Assembly (NCBI RefSeq): GCF_000834655.1
Contig: NZ_JXQQ01000048.1
Coordinates: forward strand, 1-64,000
Origin: Variovorax paradoxus
Lineage (GTDB): Bacteria; Pseudomonadota; Gammaproteobacteria; Burkholderiales; Burkholderiaceae_C
DNA length: 64,000 nt
Reading direction: 5' to 3'
Part shown: positions 12,370 to 36,351 of the stretch, piece after piece
How positions within the stretch are numbered: the stretch's first letter is position 1
Layout: each line of letters opens with the position of its first letter
The notes under the pieces: generated by a model
What the model was told of the DNA's origin: nothing
The model's input: the letters and a program-made list of their open reading frames with translations, nothing else
Databases searched by the model: none
Program-made: the position numbers and the translations under genes

Positions 12370-13161
12370 TCATGCCTTGGATGGAAGTTCTTCGTTCAGC
12401 GCATAGCCGGTCCCGCGCAGCGTGCGGATCGGCTCGACGTCGGGCGCGACCGTCTTGAGCTTGGCGCGCAGCGTCTTGATGTGCGCATCGACCGTGCGGT
12501 CGAAGCTGTCGCTGGCATCGTCCCAGACGTGTTCCAGCAGTTCGTCGCGCGTGAAGACGCGGCCCGGCCGCTGAACGAGCAGCCGCAGGAGCCCGTATTC
12601 GTAGCGGGAGAGCTCAAGTAGCCGACCGTAGTACCGGATCTGCATCCGCTCGTTGTCGACCGCGAAGGGCATTGGCGGGGTCTGTGGCGCCGCTGGAGGC
12701 GCTGCGGGCGGATTTTGAGGGGGTACCCCGGTTCCGGGCGCCGCGGCCGTTCCGGGGCCTCCAGCGCTGTTTCGCGTGCTGCGCCGCAGGATGGTGCGCA
12801 CCCGGGCGACCAGTTCGCGCGGCGAAAACGGCTTGGCGATGTAGTCGTCGGCGCCCAGTTCCAGCCCCACCACGCGGTCGATTTCGTCGCTGCGGGCCGT
12901 GAGGAACAGCATCGGTATCTCTGGCCCGCCCTGCGACTGGTTCAGCGCCCGAAGGCGCTTGAAAAGCTCGAAGCCGTTGAGATCGGGAAGGCCGATGTCC
13001 AGGATAGCCAGCGCGGGCGGCTCCTGCGCGAACTGCGCGATCGCTTCTTCGGCGGTGGCGCACCAGACCGGCGTGAAGCCGTCGCTCTTGAGGACGTATT
13101 GCAGCGTGTCGGCGATGCCCGATTCGTCTTCGGCGATCAGGATCCGGGGTTTGAAGCTCAT
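12370..13161 (-). CDS. creB: Response regulator CreB
   Basis: OmpR/PhoB-type DNA-binding response regulator partnered with CreC. The 263-residue product has a receiver domain with phosphoacceptor Asp55 in LAILDIGLPD and the conserved Lys in YIAKPFS, and a C-terminal winged helix ending IRTLRGTGYAL. Between them is an unusually long linker of about 35 residues rich in Pro, Ala and Gly (about 130-166), longer than in E. coli CreB. Its expected target, a TTCAC-N6-TTCAC tag, lies in front of creD at 4808-4850. The gene is transcribed away from the AT-rich 13162-13727 gap. Confidence 0.93.
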   Translation of the reverse strand: MSFKPRILIAEDESGIADTLQYVLKSDGFTPVWCATAEEAIAQFAQEPPALAILDIGLPDLNGFELFKRLRALNQSQGGPEIPMLFLTARSDEIDRVVGLELGADDYIAKPFSPRELVARVRTILRRSTRNSAGGPGTAAAPGTGVPPQNPPAAPPAAPQTPPMPFAVDNERMQIRYYGRLLELSRYEYGLLRLLVQRPGRVFTRDELLEHVWDDASDSFDRTVDAHIKTLRAKLKTVAPDVEPIRTLRGTGYALNEELPSKA

Positions 13162-13727
13162 CCGCGAATGTTACCGAGGGGAGGGAAGACGGCGATGCCG
13201 GTTTTCGACCGAGGCGCCGGGACCGGCGCGGCCTTTCGCGGGCTTTTTTTTGGCGCGGCGCTCTTTCTGTCTTCTATTTCTTATTCTTCTTATTCAAATT
13301 AGTAGTAGTAGATAAGGGAAGCGCTCTTCTGTGGACAGGGCGCTTTTTTCGTTATGCGACAAGGACTTGTCACAGCTGCGTCACTGTGCGCAGCTGCGCT
13401 TCCGGGATGTACCCGCAAAAGGGACAACATCGGCTAACCCTCGCGGCCTGTGGATAACCCATGGCTTGTGCCAGAACTCTCCCCAGAGTTGTCCTTTGAC
13501 AGTGTCGGGGAAATCTGCGAAAGGCAGTTTTTGGTACTAATAATTCATTGCCTCATATTTGGGCAATATGTAGATTTCCCTTTTAAATCAAGCACTTGCC
13601 GCACCCCTACACAGAAGTGCCGAGGTTATCCACAGAGTTGCCCAAGTTTTGTGGGGAGAACGCCCGAGGAACCTTCGAGCCCCCGGACAACCCAACGCCG
13701 TCCTTCACATTGCGAAAAATATCGAAC
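13162..13727. other. AT-rich gap with DnaA boxes and TAG repeats; candidate replication origin
   Basis: A 566-bp gap, far richer in A+T than its surroundings. Left to right it holds a pyrimidine/AT tract (13271-13299), four TAG triplets (13300-13311), a near DnaA box TGTGGACAG (13330-13338), a perfect inverted DnaA box TGTGGATAA (13449-13457), a second AT-rich stretch (13531-13592), and a perfect TTATCCACA (13626-13634). Related motifs CCCCAGAGTTG and CCACAGAGTTG occur near 13482 and 13630. An AAGCGC...GCGCTT stem with T-run (about 13318-13348) surrounds the near box. This layout resembles the DnaA-trio plus DnaA-box plan of bacterial origins. dnaA is not in the window. The gap must also contain the creB and 13728-gene promoters. 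Confidence 0.6.
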
Positions 13728-14681
13728 ATGACACCTTCAGAAACCAAGGCCATCGTGACCCTGAGCCTGCTGGCTGCCTTTGTCGACGGCGATAAGCACG
13801 AGCGCGAACGCGCCGAGATCAAGCGCATTGCGGAGGGCCTGTCGCAGGCCGACGGGTTGAACCTGCCGACGCTTTACCAGGACGTGCTGATGAAGCGCGT
13901 TTCCCTCGCTTCGGTGGCCGGCGAACTGACCAGCAACGAATCCAGGCAGCTCGCCTACGAAATGGCGGTGTGCGTGTGCGATGCCGACGGCGCGCAATCG
14001 GAATCGGAGCGCATGTTCCTCATGGATGTGCGCACCTCGCTCGGCCTTGACGCCTCGGCGGCGCGTTTCTCCCAGCAGGCCGAGGAAATTGCCGCGGTGC
14101 CCGTGGCCGCTGCGGCAGGCACCGCCGTCGCGGCGGTTGCCACTCCCAATGCAGTCAACGCGCCCGACAGCGCCGAGCTCGACAAGTCGATCCTCAATGC
14201 CGCCATCCTCAACGGCGCGCTCGAATTGCTGCCCGAGACGCTCTCGACCATGGCAATCATTCCGCTGCAGATGAAGCTGGTCTATCGCATCGGCCAGGCG
14301 CACGGCTACCAACTCGACAGCGGGCACGTCAAGGATTTCCTGGCCACGGTCGGCGTGGGTTTGACCTCGCAGTACCTGGAGCAGGCCGGGCGCAAGCTGC
14401 TCGGCGGCTTGCTCAGCAAGGTGGGCGGCGGGCTGCTGCGCGGTCTTGGCAACCAGGCCGTGAGCTCGGGCATGAGCTTCGCCTCGACCTATGCGCTCGG
14501 CCATGTGGCCAAGCGCTACTACGCCGGCGGCCGCACGCTCTCGACGCAGATGCTCAAGGACACGTTCTCGGGCGTGGTGAAGGAAGGGCAGAGCCTGCAG
14601 ACGCAATACCTGCCGGCTATCCAAGAGAAGGCCCGCACGCTGGATGCAGGCAAGGTGCTCTCGCTCGTGCGAGGCGCCTGA
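13728..14681 (+). CDS. TerB-like and DUF697-like membrane-associated protein
   Basis: A 317-residue protein. The first 140 or so residues resemble a TerB-type helical domain (AFVDGDKHERERAEI, CVCDADGAQSESERMFL, an acidic duplicated pattern). An Ala/Val-rich stretch follows, then a C-terminal part with glycine-rich hydrophobic helices (GRKLLGGLLSKVGGGLLRGLGNQ, STYALGHVAKRYYAGG) as in DUF697/YcjF-like proteins. TerB-like domains often sit in stress or membrane-associated complexes. ATG 13728 is chosen because the upstream extension reads through the AT-rich gap. It stands alone just right of the origin-like region. Function unknown. Confidence 0.8.
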   Translation: MTPSETKAIVTLSLLAAFVDGDKHERERAEIKRIAEGLSQADGLNLPTLYQDVLMKRVSLASVAGELTSNESRQLAYEMAVCVCDADGAQSESERMFLMDVRTSLGLDASAARFSQQAEEIAAVPVAAAAGTAVAAVATPNAVNAPDSAELDKSILNAAILNGALELLPETLSTMAIIPLQMKLVYRIGQAHGYQLDSGHVKDFLATVGVGLTSQYLEQAGRKLLGGLLSKVGGGLLRGLGNQAVSSGMSFASTYALGHVAKRYYAGGRTLSTQMLKDTFSGVVKEGQSLQTQYLPAIQEKARTLDAGKVLSLVRGA

Positions 14682-32091: not shown

Positions 32092-34050
32092 ATGCTGTAC
32101 CCCGAAGAATTCGATGTGATCGTCGTCGGCGGTGGCCACGCCGGCACCGAAGCCGCGCTCGCCGCTGCACGCATGGGCGCCAAGACGCTGCTGCTCTCCC
32201 ACAACATCGAGACGCTGGGGCAGATGAGCTGCAACCCGTCGATCGGCGGCATCGGCAAGGGCCATCTCGTGAAAGAGGTGGATGCGCTCGGCGGCGCGAT
32301 GGCAATTGCCACCGACGAAGCGGGCATCCAGTTCCGCATTCTCAATTCGAGCAAGGGCCCGGCCGTGCGCGCGACCCGCGCGCAGGCTGACCGCGTGCTG
32401 TACAAGGCCGCAATCCGCCATCGCCTGGAAAACCAGCCGAACCTGAGCCTGTTCCAGCAAGCGGTCGACGACCTGATGGTGGAGGGCGATCGCGTGGTGG
32501 GCGCCGTCACGCAGGTGGGCATCGCTTTCCGCGCGCGCACCGTGGTGCTGACTGCGGGCACTTTCCTCGACGGCCGCATCCACGTCGGCCTCGACAACTA
32601 CCAGGCCGGACGCGCCGGCGACCCGCCGGCAATCAGCCTGTCGGCGCGCCTGAAGGAACTGAAGCTGCCGCAAGGCCGCCTCAAGACCGGCACGCCGCCG
32701 CGGCTCGATGGCCGCAGCATCGACTTTTCGAAGTGCACCGAGCAGCCCGGCGACGGCATGCCCGGTGGGGCAGGGCCGATGCCGGTGTTCAGCTTCATGG
32801 GCCGCACCGACATGCATCCGCGCCAGATGGCCTGCTGGATCACGCACACGAATGCGCGCACGCACGACATCATCCGCTCCGGCTTCGACCGCAGCCCGAT
32901 GTTCACCGGGAAGATCGACGGTGTCGGTCCGCGCTACTGCCCGAGCGTCGAAGACAAGATCAACCGCTTTGCCGACAAGGAAAGCCACCAGATCTTTCTC
33001 GAGCCCGAAGGCCTGACGACCAACGAGTACTACCCGAACGGGATCTCGACCAGCCTGCCGTTCGACATTCAGTACCAGCTCGTGCGCTCGATGCCGGGGC
33101 TGGAGAACGCCCACATCCTGCGGCCGGGCTACGCGATCGAGTACGACTACTTCGATCCGCGCGAACTCAAGAGCAGCTTCGAAACCCGCTCGGTCAAGGG
33201 CCTGTTCTTTGCGGGGCAGATCAACGGCACGACCGGTTACGAAGAGGCGGCGGCGCAAGGCTTGTTTGCCGGCATCAACGCCGCGCTGCAATGCCGTGGC
33301 GAAGATGCCTGGCTGCCGCGCCGCGACGAAGCGTATTTGGGTGTGCTGGTCGATGACCTCATCACCAAGGGCGTGACCGAGCCGTACCGCATGTTCACCA
33401 GCCGCGCCGAGTTCCGCCTGCAACTGCGCGAGGACAACGCCGACATGCGCCTGACCGAAGCAGGGCGCAAGCTGGGCTTGGTGGACGATGCGCGCTGGGA
33501 CGCTTTCAGCCGAAAGCGCGACGCTGTTTCACGTGAAACAGAGCGCCTCAAGTCGATCTGGGTGAATCCGCGCAACCTGCCGGCGGCCGAGTCGGAGCGG
33601 GTGCTAGGCAAGGCTATCGAGCACGAATACAACCTCGCCGACCTGCTGCGCCGTCCTGATGTGAACTACGAAACGCTCATGTCCCTGGATGGCGGCAAGT
33701 ACAGTGCCGCGTCGACTTTGAGCGGAACAGAGATCGAGCAGATTGAGATCTCAGCCAAGTATTCGGGCTACATCGAGCGCCAGCACGACGAAGTGGAGCG
33801 CGCTGCCCATTTCGAAAATCTGCGCCTGCCTGCCGATTTCGACTACGGGCAGGTCAAGGCGCTGAGCTTTGAAGTGCGCCAGAAGCTGGACAAGCACCGG
33901 CCTGAAACTCTGGGCTTGGCTTCGCGTATCTCCGGCGTCACGCCCGCGGCCATTTCGCTCTTGATGATCCATCTGCGCAAGGGCGGCCACAAAGCCTTCG
34001 CCCGTGATGCCGCCACGGAAGCAGCCACCGAGCCGCAGTCCGCAGGATGA
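32092..34050 (+). CDS. mnmG: tRNA U34 modification enzyme MnmG (GidA)
   Basis: FAD-dependent subunit of the MnmEG complex that installs the carboxymethylaminomethyl group on wobble uridine of several tRNAs. The 652-residue product has the Rossmann FAD motif [22 protein letters not shown], the conserved [35 protein letters not shown] and the C-terminal helical tail. It overlaps rsmG by 4 bp (ATGA). A perfect parS site lies inside its coding sequence at 33525-33540. mnmG-rsmG-parAB is the classic origin-proximal order. Confidence 0.97.
33525..33540. other. parS: parS centromere site, perfect 16-mer
   Basis: TGTTTCACGTGAAACA is identical to the canonical ParB-binding palindrome. It lies inside mnmG, 3.4 kb from parB, so the chromosome partition system and its site are close together. 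Confidence 0.95.
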
Positions 34051-34688
34051 GCGCGCCCATCGATACGCTGCGCGAAGGCGCTGCAGCGCTCGGCGTTGCG
34101 TTGTCTGGTCGCCAAGCCGAGCAACTGTTGGCCTACGGCACGCTGATGCTGAAGTGGAACAAGGTCTACAACCTGACAGCGGTGCGCGATCCGGCCGGGG
34201 TGATGACGCACCACCTGCTCGACAGCTTGGCCGTCATTGCACCGCTGCAGCGGCAATATCCGGAGAAGGGCAAGCTTCTCGACGTGGGCTCGGGCGCCGG
34301 ACTGCCGGGTGTGATCATCGCGATCATGCGGCCGGACATCGATGTGAGCTGCCTGGATGCGGTCGCCAAGAAGGCCGCCTTTGTCCAGCAAGTGGCTGCG
34401 GAGCTCGAACTGCCCAATCTCCGTGGGCTGCATGCACGGGTCGAACTGCTGGAGGGCAGCTACAACGTGGTCAGCTCGCGCGCATTCGCTTCGTTGCCGG
34501 ATTTCTTCAATGGCTCGAAGCAACTGCTGGCACCGGATGGCGTCTGGCTCGCCATGAAGGGCAAGAATCCCAGCGACGAACTCGCGGGTCTACCTCCAGA
34601 AGTGGCTGTGTTTCACGTGGAACAACTGGTGGTTCCGGGCCTTGATGCCGAGCGCTGCATCGTCTGGGCGCGCAAAGACCCCGTCTGA
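34047..34688 (+). CDS. rsmG: 16S rRNA G527 N7-methyltransferase RsmG (GidB)
   Basis: Methylates G527 of 16S rRNA using S-adenosylmethionine; its loss gives low-level streptomycin resistance. The 213-residue product has the Rossmann-like SAM site [32 protein letters not shown] and [14 protein letters not shown]. It is translationally coupled to mnmG. A one-mismatch parS lies near its 3' end. Confidence 0.96.
34609..34624. other. parS: Second parS-like site, one mismatch
   Basis: TGTTTCACGTGGAACA differs from the canonical palindrome at one base (A to G at position 12). It is inside rsmG, 1.08 kb from the perfect site, which makes a paired ParB loading zone likely. Confidence 0.8.
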
Positions 34689-35436: not shown

Positions 35437-36351
35437 ATGGCCAAGATTTTCTGCATTGCCAACCAAAAGGGCGGCGTCGGCAAGACCACCACCACCGTCA
35501 ATCTCGCCGCCGGCCTGGCCAAGGTTGGGCAGCGTGTGCTGATGATCGACCTCGATCCCCAAGGCAATGCGACCATGGGTTCGGGCATCGACAAGCGCGA
35601 GCTGGAGCTGACGGTGTACGACGTGCTGCTCGAATCGGCCTCCGTCGCCGAGGCGCGCGTCAAGTCGGACAAGCTGATCGAAGGCGGGTGCAGCTACGAC
35701 GTCCTGGGCGCCAACCGCGAACTGGCCGGCGCCGAAGTGGAAATGGTGGCGCTCGACCGCCGCGAAAAGCGCCTTCGCACCGCGCTGGCGGCGGTGGGCG
35801 CCGAGTACGACTTCGTGCTGATCGACTGCCCGCCGAGCCTGAGCCTGCTCACGCTCAATGGCCTGTGCGCCGCCCATGGCGTGATCGTGCCGATGCAGTG
35901 CGAGTACTTCGCGCTCGAAGGGCTGACCGATCTGGTCAACACCATCAAGCAGGTGCACGCCAATCTCAACAAGAACCTGCAGATCATCGGTCTCTTGCGC
36001 GTGATGTTCGATCCGCGCATCACCTTGCAGCAGCAGGTGAGCGAGCAGCTCAAGTCCCACTTCGGCGACAAGGTGTTCGATACCGTGATCCCGCGCAATG
36101 TCCGGCTGGCCGAAGCACCGAGCTATGGCTTGCCTGGCGTGGTGTTCGATCCGGCCGCTCGCGGTAGCCAGGCCTTCATCGCCTTCGCGCAGGAGCTGGT
36201 CGAGAAGCTGCCGCCTGCGAGTGCCTTTGCCTCGGGTGCCGTTGCCCCGCCGATTGCGCCGGTCGAGCGCATCGCGCCGGACCTGGCCATTCCCGAGGAC
36301 GTGCTGGCGCCCGCGCCCGCATCCGATTCCACCCCCGAAAAAAGCCTCTGA
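35437..36351 (+). CDS. parA: Chromosome-partitioning ATPase ParA (Soj)
   Basis: Walker-type ATPase that moves ParB-parS complexes. The 304-residue product begins with [24 protein letters not shown] (deviant Walker A), then VLMIDLDPQGNATMG, FVLIDCPPSLSLLTLNGL and PRNVRLAEAPSYGLP. The C-terminus carries an extra Pro/Ala-rich tail of about 40 residues beyond usual chromosomal ParA. It is separated from parB by a small hydrolase gene. parS sites lie 0.8-1.9 kb upstream. Confidence 0.97.
   Translation: MAKIFCIANQKGGVGKTTTTVNLAAGLAKVGQRVLMIDLDPQGNATMGSGIDKRELELTVYDVLLESASVAEARVKSDKLIEGGCSYDVLGANRELAGAEVEMVALDRREKRLRTALAAVGAEYDFVLIDCPPSLSLLTLNGLCAAHGVIVPMQCEYFALEGLTDLVNTIKQVHANLNKNLQIIGLLRVMFDPRITLQQQVSEQLKSHFGDKVFDTVIPRNVRLAEAPSYGLPGVVFDPAARGSQAFIAFAQELVEKLPPASAFASGAVAPPIAPVERIAPDLAIPEDVLAPAPASDSTPEKSL

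Follow-up and report, generated by a model that had tools for sequence, protein, structure and literature searches.

In Escherichia coli, oriC lies tens of kilobases away from dnaA, holds an IHF site and is adjacent to mnmG. Bacterial chromosomes typically have one origin (PMC4403523), and both putative double origins in bacteria (PMC4403523) and fused Vibrio cholerae chromosomes with two origins (PMC6284228) have been described. Among the Burkholderiales, the predicted origin of Cupriavidus metallidurans CHR1 corresponds to a GC-skew transition about 90 kb from dnaA, preceded by three perfect DnaA boxes in 213 nt (PMC2864759), and hemE adjoins one of the two origins predicted for Ralstonia pickettii 12D (PMC4403523). 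The published search rule for origins with a basal unwinding system (BUS) limits the spacer between DnaA-trios and DnaA box to 16 nt (PMC8287927). Origin movement has so far been hard to study, and a literature search covering few subscription journals or preprints found no paper on the origin of Variovorax or the Comamonadaceae.

The locus considered here is a 566-bp non-coding gap in a 64-kb stretch of DNA (64,000 nucleotides, hereafter the window) from a 6.9-Mb draft genome of 138 contigs (G000), assigned to Variovorax by its named relatives. The gap extends between the start of a response-regulator gene (13161) and the ATG of a gene for a TerB-domain protein (13728), and has a GC content of 52.7%, compared with 67.3% for the whole window. 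From left to right it contains an AT/pyrimidine tract, four TAG trios, an 18-nt spacer, box I, box II, a second AT-rich tract, an IHF-consensus site and box III. The features of the gap and its surroundings are the following:

12370..13161, minus strand: response regulator (receiver and Trans_reg_C domain matches), left neighbour
13262..13503, plus strand: core element of 240 bp, with AT tract, DnaA-trios, box I, box II and the AACTcTCCCCAGAGTTGTCC block (blastn and pattern searches in relatives, 55-copy consensus, tblastn of neighbours, tree)
13262..13299, plus strand: AT/pyrimidine-rich tract adjoining the trios, candidate DNA-unwinding element (composition, aligned copies)
13300..13311, plus strand: four DnaA-trios, TAG TAG TAG TAG, invariant in 30 gap copies and nearly so over 41 aligned copies
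13330..13338, minus strand: DnaA box I, a near box with 2 mismatches, 18 nt from the trios; forward TGTGGACAG, minus-strand reading CTGTCCACA
13449..13457, minus strand: DnaA box II, perfect; forward TGTGGATAA, minus-strand reading TTATCCACA (motif, 30 gap copies)
13526..13592, no strand: second AT-rich tract, 70% AT (composition)
13586..13598, plus strand: IHF-consensus site AATCAAGCACTTG; sole match in the window
13626..13634, plus strand: DnaA box III, perfect, TTATCCACA (motif, gap copies)
13728..14681, plus strand: TerB-domain protein (domain matches), right neighbour
32092..34050, plus strand: mnmG (gidA)
33525..33540, plus strand: parS site inside mnmG, perfect TGTTTCACGTGAAACA
34047..34688, plus strand: rsmG (gidB)
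34609..34624, plus strand: parS site with 1 mismatch, inside rsmG
35437..36351, plus strand: ParA-type ATPase gene

A first-pass annotation of the window had reported two perfect boxes, a near box, four TAG triplets and AT-rich stretches in a non-coding gap of this size, and all of them were recovered at the positions listed above. The DnaA boxes and the TAG run of the gap are beyond chance: among 3000 first-order Markov sequences generated from the gap, none contained two perfect boxes and none contained four consecutive TAGs. This run is the only one of its kind within the 64 kb, and the 60-bp stretches with at least 72% AT start only at 13261-13262 and 13528-13529, both inside the gap. Nine perfect DnaA boxes are present in the genome, two of them here, and the gap is the top DnaA-box cluster in three scanned regions of about 400 kb. 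The only other pair of perfect boxes less than 1 kb apart genome-wide (C2:19913/20126) was rejected as a chromosomal origin, the region being repeat-rich and plasmid-like when judged by eye; C2:19463-20560 shows repeats around AATCGCGGACG together with the two boxes, by eye a plasmid- or chromid-type origin.

Three further motifs were observed. An inverted repeat, GACAAG-GA-CTTGTC, lies between box I and box II (window 13358-13371), followed by GTCACTGTGCGCAG at 13380, and is largely kept in the 55-copy consensus. A perfect DnaA box is found directly 5' of a reading frame recognised by eye as DnaK-like (C52:112375). Finally, TAGTAGTAGATGAGGC (C127:20437-20452), a two-mismatch relative of the trio motif that appears once in many genomes of the genus, is probably unrelated.

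With regard to features commonly used to recognise oriC, the gap shows a DnaA-box cluster above chance, an AT-rich element beside the boxes and homology to the origin region of relatives, and lacks a local switch in KOPS polarity. An origin of the BUS type should have three or more trios close to a DnaA box that departs from the consensus at no more than two positions, and the gap has four TAGs and CTGTCCACA, with two mismatches; the spacer from the last TAG to box I measures 18 nt, above the limit of 16 bp and, as already pointed out in the first-pass annotation, larger than in the model system. When GAT AAG are counted as further NAN trios the spacer is reduced to 13, though they stand in another frame.

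The dnaA gene is encoded on a different contig (C117), which synteny with the relative G033 places next to the window contig, with ~6 kb missing between them. An rRNA operon was considered for this contig break and discarded, as the corresponding 7 kb of G033 gave no Rfam match. This arrangement puts some 37 kb between dnaA and the gap, which lies downstream. The parS sites and the mnmG-rsmG-parA genes are ~20 kb from the gap. In the window and in G041, G053, G085 and G033, parS is found 12-21 kb beyond the element; the distance from the element to mnmG-rsmG-parA is 18-23 kb.

The element was detected by blastn in 88 of 91 genomes of the genus, G000 included, and gap DNA was found in none of the 59 other genomes of the same search, the listed ones being members of different families within the order. 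Weaker matches, forming a second class, fell 1.5 kb past the start of dnaA, on the opposite strand, which corresponds to the dnaA-dnaN spacer. The position relative to dnaA could be assigned for 73 of the 88 genomes; in the remaining 15, dnaA was on another contig or was not found, or the element was only upstream (G056). Altogether, 24 of the 73 carry the element at dnaA-dnaN, 20 of them without a copy within 80 kb downstream and four with another copy 31-32 kb downstream, and 49 have it downstream (5.7-77 kb) and none at dnaA-dnaN. In G075, one of the four genomes with both copies, the downstream one is near a relative (82%, 100 residues) of the response regulator of the window.

A sequence-only model of the trio/box block extends these data to the family. 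At a threshold of E <= 0.01 per genome, for which two or three chance matches are expected over 250 genomes, matches were obtained in 181 of the 250 genomes and 113 of the 141 genera. According to tblastn of the neighbouring genes, 21 of the best 27 loci outside Variovorax adjoin dnaA (20 with dnaN on the far side and one at a contig end), and another of these 27, in a different genus, is beside a TerB gene as in the window. The best 102 family matches are distributed over 90 genomes, of which 36 have the element at dnaA-dnaN, all in the same orientation (36/36); in 26, including two Variovorax, a match lies 9-117 kb downstream of dnaA, and in four 154-263 kb upstream. One genome falls into both the dnaA-dnaN and the downstream class, 17 matches are on a contig other than that of dnaA, and 12 are in genomes without dnaA in the list used. 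These placements indicate that the dnaA-dnaN spacer is the commonest place of the element and that displacement is frequent in the family. It is well supported by these comparisons that the core of the gap is a homologue of the element that related genera, and some Variovorax, have between dnaA and dnaN, and equally that the gap is an origin homologue; we assume dnaA-dnaN to be the working origin in those genera. The possible origin away from dnaA proposed in the first-pass annotation gains support from this homology.

The gap copies preserve both the elements and their spacing. Counting from the trios, box II is intact at +149 in 30 of 30 gap copies (that of G000 included), box III in 28 (at +326 in 27 and at +325 in one), and the IHF consensus appears at +285/286 in 24 of the 30. 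Mean agreement with the window is 0.90 for the block of AT tract, trios and box I and 0.99-1.00 for boxes II and III, with values of 0.86 for the flanking coding starts and 0.74-0.84 for the remainder of the spacer. A gap between two divergent genes could be simply the promoter region of the response-regulator and TerB genes, with transcription regulated by DnaA. Nevertheless, this is very unlikely, because the core is kept at unrelated sites with other neighbours, dnaA-dnaN included, and its conservation is slightly above that of the coding starts on either side (0.90 versus 0.86).

The dnaA-dnaN spacer itself was compared between genomes. In five genomes that carry the element elsewhere, this spacer has shrunk to 89 bp (G000), 88 bp (G033), 89 bp (G041), 69 bp (G053) and 69 bp (G085), and no box or trios were seen by eye in any of the five. 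The spacer measures 264-286 bp in G026, G039, G005, G023 and G075, where it holds the element. The core is present in G000 as a single copy, in the gap, and a 400-kb region surrounding dnaA in G041 yielded no homologue other than the gap copy. A tree was built from 56 cores (L219, L269 and L270 left out), and its midpoint root separates the other genera; four dnaA-dnaN copies of Variovorax fall outside the group formed by the gap copies, the copies termed type 2 and other displaced copies (support 96/88). Taken together, the short empty spacers and the tree suggest that the old dnaA-dnaN copy was lost after a duplication. That the move went through duplication is suggested by the four genomes with the element in both places and by others with tandem or distant extra copies.

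Extra copies are widespread, since 32 of the 88 genomes show more than one blastn match, some of these being fragments. Tandem arrays of five matches within 3 kb, 45-60 kb downstream of dnaA, exist in G085 (C1:321374-324275, in L167) and G001 (C36:129624-132449), and G086 has four matches spread over the chromosome. The type-2 copies examined (L220-L229, L236-L238) carry GGGTAAACCC behind the trios, which are kept together with a box I, and are present at several chromosomal sites, three of them in G086; four are located at one gene (pyruvate-dehydrogenase E1-alpha type, named by eye) and others beside unrelated genes. They form one group in the tree (100/100), whose position among the gap copies is weakly supported (80/84). 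In G000, the type-2 element is absent from the start of the E1-alpha gene, 300 kb upstream of dnaA. Copies on the same contig as dnaA are found in G047, G066, G038, G075, G086 and G089.

This multiplicity is also what would be expected if the gap held a silent or auxiliary paralogue of oriC, a duplicated core acting as a site for DnaA titration or reactivation of the datA/DARS kind, with replication starting elsewhere, at least 60 kb upstream of dnaA. We regard such a paralogue as the chief rival of an origin, though unlikely; the DnaA-binding reservoir of the first-pass annotation is likewise conceivable. The trios and the AT tract are kept in 41 aligned copies, and titration by boxes alone would presumably need neither. 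In addition, genomes with only the gap copy would be left without a recognised origin. The observations in favour of a paralogue, apart from the 32 genomes with several matches, come from strand polarity.

The first-pass annotation had described KOPS-like (FtsK-orienting) motifs pointing mostly the same way on both sides of the gap, and this holds, with 10 on the plus and 2 on the minus strand in the window and 4 of 4 pointing towards the gap in the 66 kb upstream of dnaA. No local polarity switch was found at the gap in G000, G033 or G041. In G033, GGGCAGGG occurs 10 times towards and twice away between -200 kb and the gap, with no switch within 200 kb. This word is strongly enriched in G041 (464 versus 65 for the reversed word), where it is confined to the minus strand up to 104 kb (0 plus/7 minus) and predominates on the plus strand beyond 118 kb (17/2). 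The switch of this gap-only genome, at 104-119 kb, precedes dnaA by 60-74 kb, on the upstream side, and is separated from the gap copy by 90-105 kb. In G053 and G085 the motifs are mixed, the nearest divergent switch is likewise upstream of dnaA (by eye), and a block of wrong-way motifs follows beyond parS. These positions agree with a paralogue, as does G047, in which GGGCAGGG is 3/10 to the left and 11/5 to the right of about 2.84 Mb; a second copy (2.873 Mb) lies within about 40 kb of this local switch and the gap copy a further 386 kb beyond, the count reaching up to 3.07 Mb on the side of the gap. However, the switch region of G041, searched from 104 to 124 kb, contains no element, only weak box clusters, the best being two boxes at 112.0-112.3 kb.

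At the scale of whole chromosomes the picture is more favourable to the gap in one genome than in another. The 41 sites of the KOPS 10-mer in G033 divide the chromosome cleanly into two arms that end in a terminus at 3.18-3.36 Mb. On this basis the origin falls within -488 to +48 kb of dnaA, an interval that includes the gap (+33 kb); the point opposite the terminus (-93 to +85 kb of dnaA) also contains it. The corresponding point in G076, from -69 to +1 kb, misses the gap by about 33 kb. In G026, which has a single copy, at dnaA-dnaN (1175 kb), the left side has GGGCAGGG twice on the plus and five times on the minus strand and the right side four times, always on the plus strand; the wider motif GGGNAGGG is mixed (5 plus/5 minus and 5/3, respectively). 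The polarity of GGGCAGGG lends weak support to the origin interpretation. FtsK works near the terminus, so that KOPS near the origin may be under little constraint, and an origin that has moved recently may leave a KOPS mismatch behind.

The same data bear on the spacer between hemE and priA, which could be the main origin, the gap being secondary. In G000 this spacer (C78:113040-113415, L007; gene names assigned by eye) combines an AT-rich tract with one perfect and one near box, and one minus-strand KOPS site of G033 adjoins hemE (847 kb). It was rejected, and we consider it extremely improbable, on account of its variable position with respect to dnaA (+840 kb in G033, -627 kb in G026 and about -1.46 Mb in G041) and because G033 shows no polarity switch there, the KOPS 10-mer being 21 plus/2 minus from 48 kb to 3.18 Mb, a range that spans hemE.

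GC skew was of little help. Raw cumulative minima are located 27-137 kb upstream of dnaA in five genomes, including G026 with its element at dnaA-dnaN, and after correction for coding strand no usable replication signal was left within about 200 kb in 5 genomes, for which reason skew has been set aside as evidence either way. A minimum clearly beside dnaA, which the first-pass annotation had named among the results that would refute an origin in the gap, did not appear; the skew it relied on proved uninformative, and KOPS polarity is not centred on the gap.

The gap is the best candidate for oriC, as its core is homologous to the dnaA-dnaN element and this lineage has no copy left between those two genes. 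We think it likely that it represents the chromosomal origin of this Variovorax lineage, relocated from dnaA-dnaN, and it is probably active as an origin today. In the proposed sequence of events, the dnaA-dnaN element would have been copied into the spacer between the response-regulator and TerB genes, which most gap-type genomes that could be placed have ~29-43 kb downstream of dnaA, and the dnaA-dnaN copy would then have been lost. At the relocated origin, boxes II, III and I would serve as loading sites for DnaA, with IHF bending the DNA between boxes II and III; the DnaA filament would extend over the single-stranded TAG trios, and the adjacent AT-rich tract would melt and allow helicase entry. 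A bolder proposal, tentative and in our view rather doubtful, is that Variovorax passes through states with at least two complete DnaA-type cores (dnaA-dnaN plus gap, gap plus distant type 2, or tandem arrays) and that two or more of these cores fire. The origin would then shift by duplication and loss, and the KOPS mismatch seen where the gap copy is the only one would record that the active origin changed recently.

One genus apparently displays the states before, between and after a move, with the core at dnaA-dnaN, in both places or only in the new place, plus extra copies. With these states side by side, direct tests become possible of how an origin relocates and of whether a single natural chromosome uses two homologous origins. 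In practical terms, the habit of starting circular genome records at dnaA may put the origin in the wrong place for a considerable share of the family.

Compared with the BUS-type oriC of B. subtilis and other bacteria (PMC8287927), the gap shares the AT-rich tract, the TAG trios and the DnaA box in the same order, as well as a box cluster. It differs in its distance of about 37 kb from dnaA and its 18-nt trio-box spacing, and the second AT tract, the IHF-consensus site and box III lie outside the core common to the dnaA-dnaN copies. With oriC of E. coli it has in common a position tens of kilobases from dnaA, an IHF site and mnmG in the wider neighbourhood, whereas the gap would be a relocated dnaA-dnaN copy and mnmG is 18 kb off rather than adjacent. 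The predicted origin of C. metallidurans CHR1, also on a Burkholderiales chromosome and also far from dnaA, was placed by GC skew (PMC2864759). The putative double origins (PMC4403523) and the fused V. cholerae chromosomes (PMC6284228) likewise involve more than one origin or origin-like element per chromosome. In Variovorax, by contrast, the copies are homologous cores of the DnaA type that have multiplied inside a single genus, where genomes with one site occur beside genomes with two.
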